From Synechococcales cyanobacterium C42_A2020_086 (GTDB lineage: Bacteria > Cyanobacteriota > Cyanobacteriia > Elainellales > Elainellaceae), in NCBI GenBank assembly GCA_015272325.1, contig JACYLU010000035.1, positions 62,001 through 126,000 on the forward strand: a stretch of DNA of 64,000 nucleotides, read 5' to 3'. The translations under genes were made by a program, and so were the position numbers. The notes beneath the pieces were generated by a model. It was not told the DNA's origin, made no database searches, and saw only the letters and a program-made list of their open reading frames with translations. Shown in pieces: positions 39,284 to 49,475 of the stretch (the first letter of the stretch is position 1; each line of letters starts with the position of its first letter).

Positions 39284-40049
39284 TCAGAGCGTAGTGGGGT
39301 CAATGCCCAATTCAATCAGCTTTGCAGCTAGCCGTTCTGCCCGTTGGCGTTCTTGTTCTGCTCGTTGGCGTTCTGCAGTTTGGCCTTCTGCACCTGTGGG
39401 AATCACCTGTCCTTCTCGATCACACCAACGCAACCAGAGGCGAGGAACCGCGTCTTCAAAGGGTCCCTCCCACAGTCTCAGACCCAACCCCACTGCATCT
39501 AGCCACACCATCTCCTCAGGGCTGACAATGCCTGCCTTAGGCGTTATCTCGCTGTAACCACTCGCCACAATTGACCAAACCCGCAGCAGCGCTCCATCCA
39601 TTTGATCCGGATCTTGAATCTGCCGCAGTGGATCAAACACTCCACAATAGCGCACGCCAATCTGAGCATAGATGTCCCGCTTGGAAGCGGTCTTTCCTTT
39701 TTGCTGCGATTTTTGACTCAGCTTCAGCTCATCACCTTCCGGGTTAGAGACAATTTCAACGATTGCGACGCTGGGAGAAATCCTCTGGACGCTGCACCCC
39801 CAAACTGAGCATGACATCTGGCACAATCGGATCGCCCTTGAGTTTGTAAAATAACCCAACATTGGCTGCCGCCAAAAACGGAACAGGCAGCGGCTGAGCA
39901 CTGTACAACGGTTCGACTAGCAACCGCTGCTGAACTTCTGACTGAAAATTATCCACAGGGGTATCGTCCTCGATGACGAGGTGGCTGATGTCAAGCTCGG
40001 TGATGAGATCGGCGTCATCTAGCGAACTGTTCAGCAAATCTGGAGCCAT
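39284..40049 (-). pseudogene. Uma2-family (DUF820) gene split by a frameshift, probably from a deletion between direct repeats
   Basis: Two overlapping minus-strand frames make one Uma2 protein. The 5' part (40049 down to about 39760) encodes ITELDISHLVIEDDTPVDNF, then LAAANVGLFYKLKGDPIVPD and MLSLGVQRPEDFSQRRNR before a stop. The 3' part (to 39284) encodes SVAIVEIVSNPEGDELK, KRDIYAQIGVRYCGVFDPL, VWLDAVGLGLRLWEGPFED and a charged tail with heptad-like RQRAE repeats. At the junction, the bases CGATTGCGACGCTGGG (39760-39775) encode SQRRNR in one frame and PSVAI in the other. Intact family members have about 11 extra residues (S-Y-F-V-W-E-F-G-K-P-type) between these two points. A deletion between two copies of this sequence explains the frameshift. 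Most Uma2 proteins are putative restriction-type nucleases. Confidence 0.8.
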
Positions 40050-40150: not shown

Positions 40151-42892
40151 TTAATCAGGCGGATGCTTATCCAGTCTCGATTCGGACAATCCTGCTGGCT
40201 GCAAACACTGTTCTAGCGTACTCAAGAGTTCCTTATCGAGATAGGGTTTGGTGAGGTAGTGAGTAGCACCTAGTTGCTGAGCAAGCTGGCGATATCTGGC
40301 ACTACTGCGGTAGGTGAGCATGATGATCGGCAGGGTATATCCTTGCTGTCGGCAGCGGGTGAGAAACTCTAGTCCATTCATTCGAGGCATCTCAATATCG
40401 CAGATTACGGCGGCGACATCAGGCTGAGTCCGCAGTTGGGTAATGGCTTCCCAGCCGTCTTTCGCTTGGATAACTTGATAGCCGGCTTTGTCTAGGGTTG
40501 TAGATAGAGCATGGCGAATGGTGAGAGAGTCATCTACAACCAGCACCATAGGCACGCTGGGGACAGACAGTTCGCTCAGGAGGGCGGGTTCGGCAGCATT
40601 GGCTAAGGGGGGGTACCGTCGCTCTTGCCATTTTTCAATCAAAGCAGCGCCATCAAGGACCGGAGCCAACCGCCCGTCTGCCAGAATCGTGCAACCTGCT
40701 AAACTGCTCGGCGGTGTAATTGCCTCATTGAAGGGCTTGATCGCCAGCTCCTGTTCCACGAGAATTTCATCGACTTTCAGGGCAATCACCCGATCTCCGT
40801 GGGAGATCAGCAGCAGCGGGGTTTTGCTGGGTTTCTGCCAGGCTTTGTCGGGCTTCAAGCCGTCGCCGTCGCCCCAGCGAGGATAGCGGTAGCTCAGCAA
40901 GGTTTCAGGGCAAACCGGCACAAAGCGACCCTGCCAGTGAAAAAACTGCTGCCCTTGCTCGGTTTGAAATAAATGTTCAGAGGCTACAGTGATCGCAGCG
41001 AGCGTGTCTACAGGAATGGCAAACAGATTACCCGCAATGGTAAATACAAGCAGTTTAGTAATGCTCAGGGTCAGCGGTAGTCGCAGTGTAAACGTGGTGC
41101 CTCTACCCAAACGTGATTCTACAGTTACCACGCCTTTAAGGGCATTAATCTGGGACTGTACAGCATATAGCCCCATGCCTCGTCCAGAAAGGCGACTCAC
41201 TGCCTCGGTGGTCGAAAAGCCAGGCAGAAAGAGGTACTCGTACAGGCGATGATCAGATAGGGTGGCTGCTTCGGCTCCGGTTACCGCACCGCGGGCAACG
41301 ACGGCGGCTCGAACTCGGTCGAGGTCAATACCCTGACCATCATCTTGCACTTCAATGTAGGTTTGATTGCCTCGATGCCACGCACGAATGGTGATTTTGC
41401 CTTGCAGCGGTTTGCCGAGGATCTGTCGCACTTCGGGGGGTTCAATGCCGTGGTCAAAGGCATTACGCACCAAATGGACTAGCGGATCATACAGCTTTTC
41501 CAAAATGGCTTTATCGATTAAGGTCTGGGTTCCCTTCAGCTCAAGCACCACTCGCTTTTGTTCAGTGACCGCCAGATCGCGCACCATGCGAGGAAATTGA
41601 TTCAGCAGTTCCCCAACCGGCAACATGCGGGCTTGCAACACGCTCGTCTGCACTTGCTTCAGAGTTTTCTGCTTTTGTTTAAGGATCGGCTGAAGCTGCT
41701 GATCCAATAGCGTCAGATCTTGTAGAGCCTCGCTCAGATGGGACATTTCTTCGACCATTGCCTGGATCTGGGTCTGCCAATAGTCCTGGTTGCGGGGGCT
41801 AGAAGCAAGGCGGTGCCGCTGAGGTATGCCGTTCATGATGCGATGGTGGGAGGGGTCTGCGGCAGTCCGAGTAGGCAACTGCTGCGACCAGCGATGCAAA
41901 CCTTGCATCAACTGCTGAACTCGGCTGAAACATTGCACCAGAGATTTGACGGTTTCAACCTGCTGTTCGTATTGCAACTGAATGCGATTGTCTTGAGTGA
42001 CAAGTTCGTCAACTAGGTTGCTCAGCAGCTCTAGGCGGGACCAATCCTGGCGCACTCCCAACGGTCGAGGGGGGGTTGGCACTTCGGAGGGCATGTTGGC
42101 TGGCAACTCAGCGGCAGTCGGCAAAGCTGGATGTTCCGGTAGCGATATCGGGGCAGCATCGCAGAACTGTAGCAGTTCGGCAGATGGCAATGCTATCGTC
42201 TCCTGTGAATCCTGACCGCCTTGCAGCACCGCTTGAGCAGCAGCAAAATCAGCCGTGGCAAGCTGACCGATCCGGCGAGCCGACTGAGGATGCTGCTGCA
42301 GTGCCGTCAACGTAGCGTCGGCGATGGTTCTCAGCAGCGGCTGTTGAGCGATGTCTCCCAAACCGCGAAAGATCTCGATTTGAGCACGCAGAGCCTCCCC
42401 TAAGTCGGCATCGAGAACCGTGGACAAAATCGTATGTAGTCGCTGGATGCCTTTTTCCAGATCCACCGCAAAGAGAAAGGGAGACGCTGCTCCAAGGCAA
42501 GACGCATTCAGCTTAGCGTCGAGCTGTTGCCAGATGGGGTGACTCACTGAAACGGCGTTGCTGTTGGGTTGCAAATCCTCTAGCAGCAGCGATTTGAGAT
42601 GGTCATAGGCTTGAAGCAGTAGATTCTCTAGTTCCAGGTCCACCGGGATCCTCTGCTCGGAGAGGGCTTTAAACACCGTCTCCAGATTGTGGGCTAGGGT
42701 TTGAATTTGGCTCAACCCGACGCAGGCCGCTCCACCCTTGAGCGAATGAGCAGTTCGCATCAAGCGGTACATTTTGGCGACGCTGTGATCCTGTCGCAAA
42801 TGGATCAGATCTTCCTCAAGGGCCTGCAGTAGCTCGGGTATCTCTTGCAGAAAGAACTGATAGGACTCGTGGGGACGGAAATCAGAAACCAT
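40151..42892 (-). CDS. Hybrid CheA-type histidine kinase (PixL-like)
   Basis: The protein has 913 residues from the ATG at 42892 (a GTG at 42901 would add 3). Domains: Hpt at the N-terminus with phosphoacceptor His49 in TAHSLKGGAAC; a linker; a dimerisation/H-ATPase region with LVHLVRNAFDHGIEPPEVR (N box), DDGQGIDLDRV (G1) and LSGRGMGLYAV (G2); a CheW-like domain (about 620-770); and a C-terminal receiver (about 785-905) with VVDDSLTIRHAL, phospho-Asp in CDIEMPRMNG and TKPY. It would phosphorylate its own receiver and partner regulators. It lies 71 bases downstream of the GAF chemoreceptor gene on the same strand. Confidence 0.92.
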   Translation of the reverse strand: MVSDFRPHESYQFFLQEIPELLQALEEDLIHLRQDHSVAKMYRLMRTAHSLKGGAACVGLSQIQTLAHNLETVFKALSEQRIPVDLELENLLLQAYDHLKSLLLEDLQPNSNAVSVSHPIWQQLDAKLNASCLGAASPFLFAVDLEKGIQRLHTILSTVLDADLGEALRAQIEIFRGLGDIAQQPLLRTIADATLTALQQHPQSARRIGQLATADFAAAQAVLQGGQDSQETIALPSAELLQFCDAAPISLPEHPALPTAAELPANMPSEVPTPPRPLGVRQDWSRLELLSNLVDELVTQDNRIQLQYEQQVETVKSLVQCFSRVQQLMQGLHRWSQQLPTRTAADPSHHRIMNGIPQRHRLASSPRNQDYWQTQIQAMVEEMSHLSEALQDLTLLDQQLQPILKQKQKTLKQVQTSVLQARMLPVGELLNQFPRMVRDLAVTEQKRVVLELKGTQTLIDKAILEKLYDPLVHLVRNAFDHGIEPPEVRQILGKPLQGKITIRAWHRGNQTYIEVQDDGQGIDLDRVRAAVVARGAVTGAEAATLSDHRLYEYLFLPGFSTTEAVSRLSGRGMGLYAVQSQINALKGVVTVESRLGRGTTFTLRLPLTLSITKLLVFTIAGNLFAIPVDTLAAITVASEHLFQTEQGQQFFHWQGRFVPVCPETLLSYRYPRWGDGDGLKPDKAWQKPSKTPLLLISHGDRVIALKVDEILVEQELAIKPFNEAITPPSSLAGCTILADGRLAPVLDGAALIEKWQERRYPPLANAAEPALLSELSVPSVPMVLVVDDSLTIRHALSTTLDKAGYQVIQAKDGWEAITQLRTQPDVAAVICDIEMPRMNGLEFLTRCRQQGYTLPIIMLTYRSSARYRQLAQQLGATHYLTKPYLDKELLSTLEQCLQPAGLSESRLDKHPPD

Positions 42893-42963
42893 AAGCAGCA
42901 CAAGGACAGAGGAAGGCAGCGGCTCGCCACAGGTGATAGCACCCTTGGGTATTATTGCTAACG

Positions 42964-45900
42964 TTATTGCACTTTGAACTGAGCAGCGCTGTCCTGTAGC
43001 TCTCTAGCAACATCTAGCAGTTTCGTAAAGGAATCAGCTACCCGAATCGACTGTTCCGATGTGGTTTGGGCGATCACCTCGACTTCTTGCATCGTGCTGG
43101 ACACTGACGCTGAGGTTTGGGTTTGAGCAGTGGCAGCCTGGGCCATTTGTTCCACCAGTTCGCGAATCTCGCCACTCACAATAGCGATAGAATTCAGCCG
43201 TTGCCGGGTGGTTTCAACCAGCTCGGTTCCAGAAACCACTTGTTCTAATCCAGCTTCCATGGCTGTAACAACCTGATTGGTTTCCGACTGAATTTCCTCC
43301 ACGATTTGTTCAATTTCCCGAGTTGCCGCCGTCGAGCGCTCCGCCAGCGAGCGAACCTCCTCAGCCACAACCACAAAGCCCTGCCCTTCTCCCGCAGAAC
43401 CATTGGCTTCAATGGAGGCATTGAGCGCCAGCACATGGGTCTGACTAGCCAGATCCCGGATCAAGCTCACAACCCGAGAAATCTTTTGCGACGATTCGCC
43501 CAAACGTTTCACCTTCTGTGCCGTTTCCTCTACTGTTGCTTGAATCGCCAGGATGCCGTCCACCGTCCGATTCATGGCTTCGTCACCGTCCTGCAGCGTT
43601 TGGTTGGCTTGCTGCACTTTCTGCTCAGCGGCTTGGGCATTGGCAGCGACGCTCTGCATCGAGTCGGACATGGCCTGAATTTGCCCCAACGCCACTGTGA
43701 TGGCTTCTGCCTGCCGCAGTGCTCCCGCCGAGAGGGCGCTCACTTCGCCTTCACTGCTCCAGGCCGTCTGAGCAACCGCTGCTGACGCCGACTGCACATG
43801 AAGCACAATCCGCTGCAAGTTTTCGACTGTGGCATTGAGGAACTGCGCCACTGTGCCAATTTCACCGCTGAGTTGCCGCGCTCGCACGGTTAGATCGCCC
43901 TGAGAGACGCCCTGCACATCGGCAAGCAAGGCTTCGAGCTGCCCTTGAATGGCATCTTTCTGGTGTCGCTGCTCCTGGGAAGCCAGTTCTGCCTGTTCGC
44001 GAGCTTGTTCCAATGCTTCGATGAAACTGAGGTGATCCAGGGCATATTCCACCTGGGTCGCCAACTCCGACAGGAAATCCATCTCCGACCGTTGCCACAC
44101 CCGCGGCATTGAGCAATGGTGGGCCATCAAGAGTCCATAAAGCTGGTCGTCTTTGCGAATCGGAGCAATTAGATTCGCCTTGACTTCGTACTGTTCTAGG
44201 GTGCGGATGTGGCAGTCCGACAGGCCAGGCTCTTGGTAGATATCGTTAATGGCCCGCACCCGTCCGTTGCGATACAGCTCGACGTAGCGCCCCCGAAAGC
44301 AGGGGTCATCAATGCGGGCATCGAGCACCCGCGAGAAACCAGGCATGACGGCTTCAGCAACCATGGTGCCACTCCAGTCTGGATTGAAGCGGTACACCAG
44401 CACCCGGTCGGTGTGCAGTAGCCGTAGAGCACCCTGCACCGCTGTTTTGAGGATATCGTCCTGGCTTAGCGACTGGCGTGCCCGAAAGGCAATGTCGCCA
44501 AACAAGCGGGCGCGGCCGATAATCGCCTGATTCTTGGCAATCGAGCTAAGGTGATCTAGGGCATATTCCACTTGGGTCGCCAATTGCGCCATAAAATCAA
44601 TTTCAGCCTTCTGCCAGGCACGAGGTGCATTGCATTGATGAGCAATCAGTAAACCGATCAACTCATTGTTTTGGCGCAGCGGTGCAACCAAGTTGGCCTT
44701 AACGCCGTATTTCTCCAAGGTGCGGATGTGGCAGTCGGTCAACTGCGACTCTTGACGAATGTTGTCAATCGCGCGAACGCGCCCATTTTTGTAAAGCTCG
44801 ACATAGCGCCCCCGGAAGCAAGGGTCATCAATTTTTTCGGCCAACACGCTCGGAAACTCTGGCACCACCGATTCTGCCACCATCGTGCCGCTCCAGTCGG
44901 GATTGAAGCGGTACACCAGCACCCGGTCGGTCTTGAGGATTTGCCGTGCCCCCTGCACCGTCAACTGAAAGATCTCCTGGACATCTGAGGTTTGGCGCGC
45001 TCGAAAAGCAATTTCTCCGAAAAACCAGGCTCGCTGGTTGGCGGCCTGCTGCTCGTTGAAGAAATGAATATAGTCGAGGCTGTACTCAACTTCAGTGGCG
45101 AGCTGCGCCATAAAATCTAGATCGGCTTTGGTCCAGAGGCGTGGTCCCTGACACTGGTGGGCAATCAACAGTCCGTAGAGGTGGTCGTCTTGGCGAATCG
45201 GCACGACCAGATTGGCGCGCACCCGATACTGCTCCAGCAGACGAATGTGGCAATCAGTGAGTCCAGGTTCTTTGTAAATATCGTTAATCGCCCGCATCCG
45301 GCCATTTTGGTATTGGAGCGCATGCCGCTGCCGGAAGCAGGGGTCACCGATGGTTTCGTTGAGCACCTTGGGCAGATCGGGCGCGACAGATTCGGCCACC
45401 ATGGTGCCGCTCCAATCGGGGTTAAAGCGGTAGATTACCACACGGTCGGTACTCAAAAACTGACGGGCAGCCTGAACAGTGGTCTCGTAGAGCACCGACA
45501 ACTGAGGCGTCTGCCGGGTCCGGAAGGAGAGATTGCTCAAAAGCTGCCGCTGCTGCAACTGCCGTGCCTGCTGTTTCGAGAGCTGCTGCAACTGGCTGGA
45601 TAATTGCCTGATTTGGTCTTCTAGCTGCATCAGCTCATTACCGTCTGCCGCTGCCGGTAATTTACCCTGCCCAATCTGATGAACCACCGCATTCGCGTTC
45701 TCAATGGGACGCAAAGCTCGTTTAGTGAGCACATTGGCACTGGCTCCGGCGGCAATCGCAGTCAGCACACTGCCAAACAGCAGCGTCACAAACGGGCTAG
45801 GAAAATAGTAGCTAGTCGTACCCACGAGCAAAATTGGCACAGTGCTGAAGGCAATCGCCAGCAGGGCAACTTGCTGTTTCAAACCCAATCCCTGCCACCA

Positions 45901-46101
45901 GCGCTGAATTCGCAGAGGTTGGGCCGAGGGCTGAACCGATCCAGGCAAGGCTGATGACTCTTCAGCAGCATGAGACGAGAGTATTGGGGAAGCAGGCTCG
46001 GTGGGGTCTAGCAGCAGCGAGGGCAAATCGACTGCCTCCGGAGAAACCGAACTACCATCGGAAAGAGCAGAGTTAGCAGAATCGAGCATGTTGTCAGCCA
46101 T
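42964..46101 (-). CDS. pixJ: Chemoreceptor with three DXCF cyanobacteriochrome-type GAF domains (PixJ-like phototaxis receptor)
   Basis: The protein has 1045 residues: a cytoplasmic N-terminus of 70 residues, two transmembrane helices (about 75-95 and 102-122), a HAMP-like stretch, three GAF domains (about 200-345, 373-518, 546-691), a second HAMP-like region and a methyl-accepting signalling domain with LALNASIEANGSAGEGQGF and VVVAEEVRSLAERSTAA. Each GAF has DPCF (Cys255, 428, 601) and CH (Cys284, 457, 630). The spacing is 29 residues in each and the repeat period is exactly 173 residues. In DXCF cyanobacteriochromes these are the two bilin-linked cysteines of blue/green sensors, so I infer a light sensor for twitching phototaxis. 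Chromophore binding is not shown. It is transcribed between a CheW gene (20 bases upstream) and a hybrid CheA. Confidence 0.9.
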   Translation of the reverse strand: MADNMLDSANSALSDGSSVSPEAVDLPSLLLDPTEPASPILSSHAAEESSALPGSVQPSAQPLRIQRWWQGLGLKQQVALLAIAFSTVPILLVGTTSYYFPSPFVTLLFGSVLTAIAAGASANVLTKRALRPIENANAVVHQIGQGKLPAAADGNELMQLEDQIRQLSSQLQQLSKQQARQLQQRQLLSNLSFRTRQTPQLSVLYETTVQAARQFLSTDRVVIYRFNPDWSGTMVAESVAPDLPKVLNETIGDPCFRQRHALQYQNGRMRAINDIYKEPGLTDCHIRLLEQYRVRANLVVPIRQDDHLYGLLIAHQCQGPRLWTKADLDFMAQLATEVEYSLDYIHFFNEQQAANQRAWFFGEIAFRARQTSDVQEIFQLTVQGARQILKTDRVLVYRFNPDWSGTMVAESVVPEFPSVLAEKIDDPCFRGRYVELYKNGRVRAIDNIRQESQLTDCHIRTLEKYGVKANLVAPLRQNNELIGLLIAHQCNAPRAWQKAEIDFMAQLATQVEYALDHLSSIAKNQAIIGRARLFGDIAFRARQSLSQDDILKTAVQGALRLLHTDRVLVYRFNPDWSGTMVAEAVMPGFSRVLDARIDDPCFRGRYVELYRNGRVRAINDIYQEPGLSDCHIRTLEQYEVKANLIAPIRKDDQLYGLLMAHHCSMPRVWQRSEMDFLSELATQVEYALDHLSFIEALEQAREQAELASQEQRHQKDAIQGQLEALLADVQGVSQGDLTVRARQLSGEIGTVAQFLNATVENLQRIVLHVQSASAAVAQTAWSSEGEVSALSAGALRQAEAITVALGQIQAMSDSMQSVAANAQAAEQKVQQANQTLQDGDEAMNRTVDGILAIQATVEETAQKVKRLGESSQKISRVVSLIRDLASQTHVLALNASIEANGSAGEGQGFVVVAEEVRSLAERSTAATREIEQIVEEIQSETNQVVTAMEAGLEQVVSGTELVETTRQRLNSIAIVSGEIRELVEQMAQAATAQTQTSASVSSTMQEVEVIAQTTSEQSIRVADSFTKLLDVARELQDSAAQFKVQ

Positions 46102-46121
46102 CAGGGCAAACCTCTAGTCAG

Positions 46122-46613
46122 TTACTGAGTTACAGAATCCTTCAACAAATCAAGAATTTTTTCCCCATCTAGGATCAGGACAGTTCCCTCTTCCCGGCTT
46201 TGATAAAGACCGCGTAGGCAGCAGGCTAGATTGGGTGTGATGTCAATCAACAGCGGCGATTGCAACTGCTGAATTCGAGGGAGCGGGCAGACGACTAAGT
46301 GCCCCACTTGCCGCACCGCTAACCCAACCTGAGACTGCTGCCGATGCACCACCATGACACTGTAGGGGTGACGACAGTTTTGCGCCCAGAGGGTTTCTAT
46401 TCCCACTAAACAGGCCAGGTCAACAATCCATAACACTTCGCCCCGATGATTGCAGATCCCCATGACCGCATCGGGAAGATCAAAAATGGGGGTGATTTGG
46501 CTTGGTTCCAGAGTAAGAATTTCCCCGAGATGCTCGGTGGGCAGCATTGCCTGCAGCCGAGGTGTCATCTGAAAGCTCAAAAACTGAGAATGTTGAACCT
46601 GCCGTCCTGTCAT
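46122..46613 (-). CDS. CheW-type coupling protein (PixI-like)
   Basis: The protein has 163 residues from the ATG at 46613. A longer start at 46628 would add 5 residues. The CheW fold: FLSFQMTPRLQAMLPTEHLG, IFDLPDAVMGICNHRGEVLW, VDLACLVGI, SVMVVHRQQSQVGLAVRQV and ending LILDGEKIL. CheW proteins link receptor and CheA kinase. It is the first gene of a CheW - receptor - CheA operon on the minus strand. Unlike the Synechocystis pix (tax1) operon, no CheY-like (pixG/pixH) genes precede it. Confidence 0.88.
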   Translation of the reverse strand: MTGRQVQHSQFLSFQMTPRLQAMLPTEHLGEILTLEPSQITPIFDLPDAVMGICNHRGEVLWIVDLACLVGIETLWAQNCRHPYSVMVVHRQQSQVGLAVRQVGHLVVCPLPRIQQLQSPLLIDITPNLACCLRGLYQSREEGTVLILDGEKILDLLKDSVTQ

Positions 46614-47423
46614 AGAGCAGATACACAAAATACAAAAAAATTAGAAGTGCTAGCAGCCCTCACCGCCCCCAAGTTGGATTCTCACTGAGGCACTGCATTG
46701 AGTGACCGCATTGCCTGACTGATAGTTAGCCAGTAGTTAGCCAGGGTGGGGATGGCAAGAGTAGGATTAAACGGAACTGGAATCTAGGCAGCAGTGCGGA
46801 TAGTACAATGCGCTTATCATATAAAAAATGACACTCGCTAACCTACTGTGATTTGGCTGAGGTGCTTTTGGCAACCCCAGCAGATGCTGCTGTTTAGGAC
46901 CCGTATGAGCAGTAGAGCAGCCTATACTGACCTATACAGTGAGCTTACCGGTGAGATTAGTTTTCGATCCTACATCTAATGCCGCTAAGATTTGAATGAG
47001 GCGCTGTTGGCTAGAAAAGCCTGTCAGGGAAATTTAATCTTTAGACTGAATATCTCCAAAGCCAATAACGTTAGGTGGCCGCACATTTCATGGAAAATGC
47101 AGATTGGGCAAGGGAGTATCCTCCATGTCTGAACTGTCTACAATTTGTGTTGAAATTCTGTCTGGCAGACTAGCAGGCATCGAGCGGTTGCTGCCTATTG
47201 CCGCGAGAAGGAGAGGGAACGCTGGTTTCCTGCGCTAGGTTGCAGCCACTGAGCCACGAGTCAGCACACTGGTTTGGGTGAAATTCTGCTACTCCGCTCT
47301 TCTAGGAACCGCCGAATGGCGTTTGCAGCCAGTGAGATTGCTTTATCAGGGTTAGAATCTGTTTTTCAAGGTGATTGTTTTCCCAGGCTCACGTCCGTTC
47401 ATTGCTGAAGTGCACTACCTGCT
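46614..47423. other. Divergent spacer between the CheW operon and the kinase gene
   Basis: 810 bases without a supported gene. It contains the perfect 11-bp pair (46723-46744) and CCTATACTGA-CCTATACAGT (46921-46940). The divergent promoters of the phototaxis-type operon and of the WD40 kinase must lie here; I could not assign boxes. Confidence 0.5.
46723..46744. repeat. Perfect 11-bp tandem duplication
   Basis: TAGTTAGCCAG twice in tandem, in the spacer upstream of the CheW gene. Confidence 0.93.
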
Positions 47424-49475
47424 ATGCTCTGCTGTCTTAATCCTCAATGCCAGAAACCCCTCAATCCAGACGATGCCAATATTTGTCAGAACTGCGGGGC
47501 AGCGCTAACACTATTGCGAGGTCGCTATCGGGCAGTGCAACTGCTAGGACAGGGTGGATTTGGCAGAACCTATCTCGCATTGGATGAGGATCGTCTGAAC
47601 TCGCGCTGCGTCATCAAACAGTTTTCGCCACAAGTTCAGGGTACGAAATCGTTAGAGAAGGCAGTGCGGCTGTTCAACCAGGAAGCGGTGCGGCTGCACG
47701 AGCTAGGAGAGCATGCACAAATTCCAGCTCTGCTGGCTTACTTCGAGCAAGATGGCTATCTCTACTTGGTTCAGCAATTTATCGAAGGACAAAGCTTGCT
47801 GCAAGATATGCGGCAGCAGGGACCCTTTAATGAGCGGCAAATTCGCGAGGTGCTGGCAGACGTGCTACCCGTCCTGCGCTTTGTGCATCGCCATCAGGTG
47901 ATCCACCGCGACATTACTCCCACCAACATTTTGCGCCGCCAGTCGGATGATCGGCTGGTGCTGATTGATTTTGGTGTGTCTAAGCGAATTCAGGAAGAAG
48001 CGGCTGCCGACGGCGGTACCCGCATTGGCACCGAAGGCTACGCCCCCATGGAGCAATTTCGGGGTGGCAAGGCCTATCCAGCCAGTGATCTATACAGCCT
48101 AGGAGCAACTTGTCTGCATCTGATGACGGAAACCCGCCCCGATCATCTCTACGATCCGCTGAATGGGCGCTGGATCTGGCGAGAGTATCTGTGGAAGGAG
48201 AAAGGGATGCAGGTGAGCGACCAACTCGCGCATATCCTAGACCACCTGTTGAAAGATCTGGTGAGTGAGCGCTACCAGTCTACAGACGAAGTCATGCGGG
48301 ATCTCAACGCTGATTCTTTTCTGCCCTCCACTCGTCCGGGAGCATCGGTCGTTTCGGGTGCGGCTACTCGCTCTCCGACAGGGCTATCCTCCCATTCACG
48401 ATCGGCGACGCCGGCTCCAGCTGCTAGACCCATGTCTCAGCCGCCCTTGTCTCGACCTTCAGGGTCCCCCGGTGTGTCGGGTCGGCCGGCTACAGTTTCC
48501 TCGGGTGGTTCTAGCGGAACCCGTAGCGGGCAGGTGGCTTCGCAGCCCAGTGGACCCGCTGCCCCGTCTCGCCCGCCGACTGCTCGCTCTCCTCGCTGCT
48601 TGCACACGCTCACAGCCCATACCTCATGGGTTACCTGTGTCGCTATCAGCGCTACAACCCCAACCTTCGCCAGCAGCAGTTTAGATGACACTGTAAAGAT
48701 ATGGAACCTAAACACCGGCGAGCTGCTGCTCAATTTGGTTGGGCATACCCGAGGCGTGAATACGATCGCCATCAGTCCTGACAGCCGTACCTTAGTGAGC
48801 GGCAGCGACGACTACAGCGTGCGAGTCTGGAGCTTCCTGAACGGTGCACTGCTGGGTGCTCTGAGCGGGCATAACCGAGACGTCAATGCCGTTGCTATCA
48901 GCCCTGATGGCAAACTGCTAGTGAGTGGCGGTGAAGATCGCACGATTCGTCTCTGGAGTCTGAGCACTGGGGCGCTGCTGAAAACCTTGGCAGAAGTAGC
49001 TGGCATGATCAAGACCATTGCCATTAGCCCCGATGGCAAATTGCTGGCGAGCGGCGGTCTGGATAACAAAATTAAACTCTGGAGTCTGCGTACCGGAGAA
49101 TACCTGAAGACCCTGGTTGGTCACCTCAATCCAGTGCACGCCATCCTCTTCAGCCCTGACGGGCAAACCTTGATTACCGGCAGCAAAGACAAGACGATTC
49201 GGCTGTGGAACATCCAAACGGGCGAGTTAGTACGCACCTTCACCGAGCACATCCGAGATGTCAATGCTTTGGCGCTCACGCCCAATGGTCGAGTCTTGAT
49301 CAGCGGCAGCAGCGACAGCACCATTAAGCTATGGGATTTGGCTACCGGTCGCGTGTTGGCAACCTGGACGGACCATACCGATACGGTCAACTCCGTCGCC
49401 GTTAGCCCAGACGGCAAGCTGCTGGTCAGCGGCAGTTCCGATAAAACCATACGCATCTGGCAGTTGATGGTCTAA
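47424..49475 (+). CDS. Serine/threonine protein kinase with zinc ribbon and seven WD40 repeats
   Basis: The protein has 683 residues. It starts with a Cys4 zinc ribbon (CLNPQCQKPLNPDDANICQN, then CG). The kinase domain (about 30-295) has LLGQGGFGRTYLA, VIKQF with the ATP-binding Lys, VIHRDITPTNIL with catalytic Asp, LIDFGVSK, GTEGYAPMEQF and LYSLGATCLHLMTE. A Ser/Pro/Gly-rich linker (about 295-390) follows. The C-terminus has exactly seven WD40 blades, each ending IW/LW-type (VKIWNL, VRVWSF, IRLWSL, IKLWSL, IRLWNI, IKLWDL, IRIWQL), a complete propeller. Many cyanobacteria hold such kinases; their targets are unknown. Confidence 0.93.
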   Translation: MLCCLNPQCQKPLNPDDANICQNCGAALTLLRGRYRAVQLLGQGGFGRTYLALDEDRLNSRCVIKQFSPQVQGTKSLEKAVRLFNQEAVRLHELGEHAQIPALLAYFEQDGYLYLVQQFIEGQSLLQDMRQQGPFNERQIREVLADVLPVLRFVHRHQVIHRDITPTNILRRQSDDRLVLIDFGVSKRIQEEAAADGGTRIGTEGYAPMEQFRGGKAYPASDLYSLGATCLHLMTETRPDHLYDPLNGRWIWREYLWKEKGMQVSDQLAHILDHLLKDLVSERYQSTDEVMRDLNADSFLPSTRPGASVVSGAATRSPTGLSSHSRSATPAPAARPMSQPPLSRPSGSPGVSGRPATVSSGGSSGTRSGQVASQPSGPAAPSRPPTARSPRCLHTLTAHTSWVTCVAISATTPTFASSSLDDTVKIWNLNTGELLLNLVGHTRGVNTIAISPDSRTLVSGSDDYSVRVWSFLNGALLGALSGHNRDVNAVAISPDGKLLVSGGEDRTIRLWSLSTGALLKTLAEVAGMIKTIAISPDGKLLASGGLDNKIKLWSLRTGEYLKTLVGHLNPVHAILFSPDGQTLITGSKDKTIRLWNIQTGELVRTFTEHIRDVNALALTPNGRVLISGSSDSTIKLWDLATGRVLATWTDHTDTVNSVAVSPDGKLLVSGSSDKTIRIWQLMV

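Follow-up and report, generated by a model that had tools for sequence, protein, structure and literature searches.

Does a chemosensory operon with no response regulator genes alongside belong with the phototaxis systems of cyanobacteria, and are the tandem GAF domains of its receptor likely to sense light? The question is raised by three minus-strand genes in the 64-kb stretch of DNA analysed here, referred to below as the window. The system is real and well preserved, and belongs to the cyanobacteriochrome phototaxis kind, not to a separate kind. Our main reading, to which we assign a probability of roughly 0.65, is that of a light-regulated chemosensory operon of this kind that represents a rare and distinct sub-lineage, with a receptor working in the blue/green range and a CheA without a dedicated CheY. 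The bilin binding, colours and behaviour ascribed to the receptor are predictions made from its sequence.

A compact operon on the minus strand

The open reading frames of the window include three genes in tandem on the minus strand: cheW, one for a receptor of 1045 residues, and a hybrid cheA. The CheW adaptor (46122..46628) has 168 amino acids when read from a TTG, with an alternative ATG at 46613, and matches the Pfam CheW family with 69.1 bits. The receptor gene (42964..46101) lies 20 bases further on and is followed, after 62 or 71 bases depending on the cheA start chosen, by the hybrid CheA (40151..42901; 916 amino acids from a GTG, alternative ATG at 42892). Within the latter, Pfam recognises Hpt (42593-42862), HATPase (41069-41485), CheW-like (40634-41053) and receiver (40214-40546) domains, all on the minus strand, and both sequence and alignment show the Hpt His box, the kinase boxes and the receiver motifs to be intact. 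The genes, domains and gaps of 20 and 71 bases on which the earlier note had based its compact CheW-receptor-CheA operon are thus confirmed, the second gap being 62 bases if the GTG is used.

The intergenic region upstream of cheW (46629..47423) contains no PATAN or CheY relic by tblastn, which speaks against remnants of pixG or pixH at this position. Scanning for promoters and terminators yielded nothing exceeding shuffled expectation. The gene beyond this region (47424-49475) is divergent and encodes a Ser/Thr kinase with WD40 repeats. The related operons of Elainella (L071) and Pegethrix (L072) adjoin the same gene in the same position and, given this shared neighbour, were most likely vertically inherited. 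Past the cheA end of the operon, two overlapping reading frames without a Pfam match (39284-40049) look like one broken gene.

Three near-equal GAF domains with an altered cysteine spacing

Hydropathy peaks at receptor residues 77-97 and 104-125 mark two transmembrane helices, N-terminal of three cyanobacteriochrome-type GAF domains and an MCP signalling domain, as found by Pfam. The GAF domains occupy, on the minus strand, 45052..45522 (GAF1, residues 194-350), 44533..45003 (GAF2, residues 367-523) and 44014..44484 (GAF3, residues 540-696). Each of the three contains a DPCF motif, with Cys255 (45337-45339), Cys428 (44818-44820) and Cys601 (44299-44301), and a Cys-His pair, with Cys284 (45250-45252), Cys457 (44731-44733) and Cys630 (44212-44214), respectively. 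The MCP signalling domain (43078..43536, minus strand, residues 856-1008) scores 119 bits against Pfam MCPsignal and carries the conserved hairpin tip GEGQGFVVVAEEVRSLAERS, through which such domains couple to CheA and CheW.

The repetition was assessed by comparing the receptor with itself: a lag of 173 residues is the only one between 100 and 259 to give more than 12% identity, reaching 212 of 337 positions (63%), in agreement with the exact period and the cysteines that had been noted earlier. Aligned gap-free, the copies share 55-64% of their residues, far above chance, and their third codon positions agree in only 38-42%. Among solved structures, TePixJ entries are nearest in sequence (E 7e-39). 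An AlphaFold2 model of GAF3 (pLDDT 92) has the cyanobacteriochrome GAF fold, and its top PDB match in Foldseek is TePixJ 4FOF (TM 0.87/0.88, rmsd 1.4, 43% identity). When all three GAFs are modelled together (pLDDT 88, pTM 0.65), they are joined by continuous helices of about 46 residues. With TePixJ as the closest solved structure, the earlier assignment to the DXCF cyanobacteriochrome type appears sound.

Possession of three complete DXCF copies, which the earlier note considered noteworthy, is in fact ordinary. DXCF GAFs number three or four in receptors of the Okeania/Lyngbya type, the genomes G065 and G104 have sets of four complete DXCF and Cys-His sites on one strand, spaced regularly by 516 or 537 bases, and PtxD of Nostoc punctiforme (NpF2164) has seven GAFs, at least six of which bind bilin (PMC5812497). 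PtxD resembles the window receptor in joining many tandem cyanobacteriochrome GAFs to an MCP domain (PMC5812497), but its GAFs are of mixed kinds and colours and the ptx cluster keeps a CheY, whereas the window has three near-equal GAFs of one kind and no CheY. SynPixJ1, with two transmembrane helices and two GAFs, binds bilin through GAF2 only (PMC5812497). TePixJ and SynPixJ1 share with the window receptor an MCP domain and GAFs with DXCF and Cys-His, the window GAFs being 43-46% identical to that of TePixJ, but have one bilin-binding GAF where the window receptor has three of photosensory type. The notable points are instead the altered cysteine spacing and the conserved absence of CheY and PATAN.

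Regarding the first of these, TePixJ forms two thioether bonds to its bilin, through C494 and C522 (PMC6955287), and these cysteines are 28 residues apart, as in almost all other DXCF domains. In the window receptor and all copies of its lineage the separation is 29, the extra residue sitting directly before the canonical Cys (KEPGLTDCH here, K-AGLTECH in TePixJ). Both cysteines of the pair proposed earlier as the DXCF bilin sites therefore stand, but 29 is not their usual separation. Within the class, 75 of 107 genomes contain a strict DNA pattern with a spacing of 28; that with 29 is present in 19 of 390 genomes, in several of them by chance. The longer spacing is not unique to the operon, being found also in the GAF proteins L162-L164, L178, L174, L175 and L189. 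The last of these (L189:7305-8918) is a 538-residue protein with two such GAFs, neither an MCP domain in frame nor che genes nearby, and is possibly a sister of the window GAF lineage.

Receptors of the lineage were found, besides the window, at nine loci (L071-L078 and L146), and cover six named families: that of the host together with Leptolyngbyaceae, Prochloraceae, Coleofasciculaceae, Xenococcaceae and Aerosakkonemataceae. Six of the receptors (window, L071-L075) have three GAFs, all with both cysteines, and that of L078 has two; those of L076, L077 and L146 are broken or cut. Within the host's family, a receptor of more than 70% identity occurs in 3 of 36 genomes. The L076 receptor, about 75% identical to that of the window, comes from a record labelled Myxococcota and probably lies on a misbinned cyanobacterial contig.

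In an unrooted tree of 95 GAFs, the 25 lineage domains form one clade (support 97/90), outside both the TePixJ clade (98/90) and the red/green group. An AU test does not reject a tree in which they join the TePixJ clade (p-AU 0.092), though the best tree keeps the clade apart. Comparison with characterised PixJ and other cyanobacteriochrome domains, which the earlier note had called for, therefore gives a divided answer: the window GAFs are closest to TePixJ in sequence and fold, but in the tree they fall outside its clade. Among the 95 GAFs compared, they would represent a distinct branch. GAF1 and GAF2 copies each cluster with their counterparts from other families, which indicates that the triplet is old and that each copy has been kept; together with the low third-position agreement, this grouping rules out a recent tandem duplication.

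The same tree raises the prospect that the GAFs are not photosensory at all, having descended from domains of the PixJ-GAF1 type and inherited their cysteines, and act as dimerisation or small-ligand modules. The lineage does share one side of a branch (98/84) with PixJ-GAF1-type domains lacking the canonical Cys, and GAF1 of SynPixJ1 is not the bilin-binding one (PMC5812497). In these neighbours, however, the canonical Cys and the DXCF Phe are both lost. In the lineage, across the six named families, all 25 copies retain the equivalents of TePixJ Cys494, Cys522, Asp492, Phe495 and Asn535, and 24 that of Tyr463. The canonical Cys is followed by His in 22 copies and by Tyr in three. That all six cysteines of a receptor would persist neutrally through so much divergence is unlikely, and the fold predicted for GAF3 fits holo-TePixJ. 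We therefore regard a non-photosensory role as very improbable. A clade of non-photosensory domains that merely keep the cysteines had been named earlier as an outcome that would overturn the light-sensing interpretation; the lineage does adjoin degenerate PixJ-GAF1-type domains, but retains its cysteines and most of the pocket residues checked, so that the interpretation passes this test only in part. Placement in the tree proves no photosensing by itself, and the case for a photosensory role is made by the conserved residues and the fold.

A different matter is whether the photocycle would be blue/green. The position of TePixJ Gln526, a residue that the bilin comes near during photoconversion (PMC6955287), is occupied by Thr, Leu or Met in all 25 lineage copies, but 30 of 31 other DXCF domains have Gln there. 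This replacement and the residue added just before the canonical Cys set the lineage apart from TePixJ and SynPixJ1, along with its separate clade, and to judge from sequence could alter or even abolish a blue/green cycle, contrary to our main reading. A light sensor of another sort, whether UV/green, blue/teal or without a reversible second linkage, is accordingly a distinct possibility, though we do not favour it. Both cysteines are kept and, in alignment with AnPixJ, the pair of Phe residues on beta-2 and helix 4 that is tied to teal tuning (PMC5240096) is replaced in the window GAFs by Met and Tyr. With this pair absent, a type other than teal fits better, and blue/green is inferred in preference to blue/teal.

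A CheA without its own CheY

The core of the operon has the same order as in Synechocystis tax1 (pixG-H-I-J-L), in that cheW, the cyanobacteriochrome-MCP receptor and cheA run in one direction. It differs from tax1 in lacking a PATAN-CheY gene (PixG) and a CheY gene (PixH). Searching the 64-kb window by tblastn with the genome's own proteins revealed no PATAN or CheY gene, the sole match being the CheA receiver, so that the operon does open with CheW and without pixG or pixH alongside, as had been noticed from the sequence at first reading.

The wider genome search proposed at that time, made by protein family and by location, revealed five PATAN genes, each accompanied by CheY and CheW in one of five other che clusters. 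One of these, C19b (C19, around 159-168 kb), comprises PATAN, CheY, CheW, a two-GAF receptor and CheA in the order of tax1; one of the two receptor GAFs is a complete DXCF domain. Contig C25 of the genome encodes a further receptor, one GAF of which (L011:12087-12629) matches the solved far-red cyanobacteriochrome JSC1_58120g3 (E 2.5e-91) and is likely, from this match, to be a far-red sensor in a che cluster.

It could be argued from the pixI-pixJ-pixL order, and from the five PATAN and many receiver genes present elsewhere, that pixG and pixH have merely been relocated in what is otherwise a canonical pix/tax1 phototaxis system. We consider this improbable: every PATAN gene found belongs to one of the five other clusters, C19b already constitutes a separate full pix-like cluster, the window CheA is not sister to the CheA of C19b and so branches apart from the genome's pix-like cluster, and the absence of PATAN and CheY is common to all readable relatives. 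Upstream DNA is readable in eight operons (window, L071-L075, L078 and L146); in all of them PATAN is missing and CheY does not adjoin, and cheW is the first gene in seven, L071-L075 and L146 included. As for the closest receivers, L075 has a CheY-like gene of 143 residues about 1.5 kb upstream, L146 a partial receiver match some 3 kb upstream, L074 a regulator of 241 residues on the downstream side, and L073 one downstream on the other strand. In the Phormidesmis operon (L075:10088-12839), cheA is split into frames of 605 and 186 residues, with the receiver in the second.

In the CheA tree, which was built without Synechocystis PixL itself, the window lineage groups with CheA of the Okeania/Lyngbya type (support 98) and with L153. 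The Okeania/Lyngbya-type operons (L079-L087, L092) resemble that of the window in this grouping and in the tandem DXCF GAFs of their five-GAF receptors, but their cysteine spacing is 28, their GAFs fall in the TePixJ-side clade and they keep PATAN and CheY upstream; L153 lacks PATAN.

In two relatives, L077 and L078, the CheA lacks a receiver and nothing nearby matches CheW; their operon is a further reduced form. Because the receiver is missing from both, the fused CheA receiver is not the general output of these systems. It had been supposed that output would come from this receiver or from a regulator elsewhere; regulators are indeed present elsewhere, but the first option does not hold generally. 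The host genome encodes about 150 receiver domains, which leaves many potential partners for cross-talk and points to no particular one.

Proposed mechanism and wider meaning

In our main reading, each GAF would bind phycocyanobilin through its Cys-His, and the DXCF cysteine would reversibly attack C10 to give a dark state in the near-UV/blue and a photoproduct at longer wavelength, probably green. The genome encodes one ferredoxin-dependent bilin reductase. Photoconversion of any one GAF would travel along the continuous helices to the MCP domain and change CheA autophosphorylation; the spine shared by the three equal sensors might let them sum their signals or set a threshold. Phosphate would pass to the CheA receiver, acting as a sink or internal regulator, and, as the operon lacks a dedicated CheY, would also reach CheY/PATAN regulators belonging to one of the five further che clusters and through them tune motility by type IV pili; PilB/PilT-type ATPases are present in the genome. 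Transfer from a PixL-type CheA through CheY regulators to the pili is the accepted, though partly unproven, model in Synechocystis (PMC5812497).

More tentatively, and in our estimation rather doubtfully, the GAFs may be a separate DXCF lineage with a shifted cysteine geometry and a photocycle of its own, and the CheA, lacking a cognate CheY and in some lineages even a receiver, may make the operon a light-set source or sink of phosphate for other taxis systems.

If the main reading is correct, the lineage offers a natural and evolutionarily stable DXCF variant, with an extra residue beside the chromophore-bearing Cys, through which the relationship of cysteine geometry to colour may be probed. 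With three near-equal sensors along a single helical spine, it would also allow a test of whether tandem sensors of the same kind add their signals or set a threshold. A phototaxis-type cluster without CheY or PATAN output would, likewise, be a clean case for chemosensory cross-talk in cyanobacteria.
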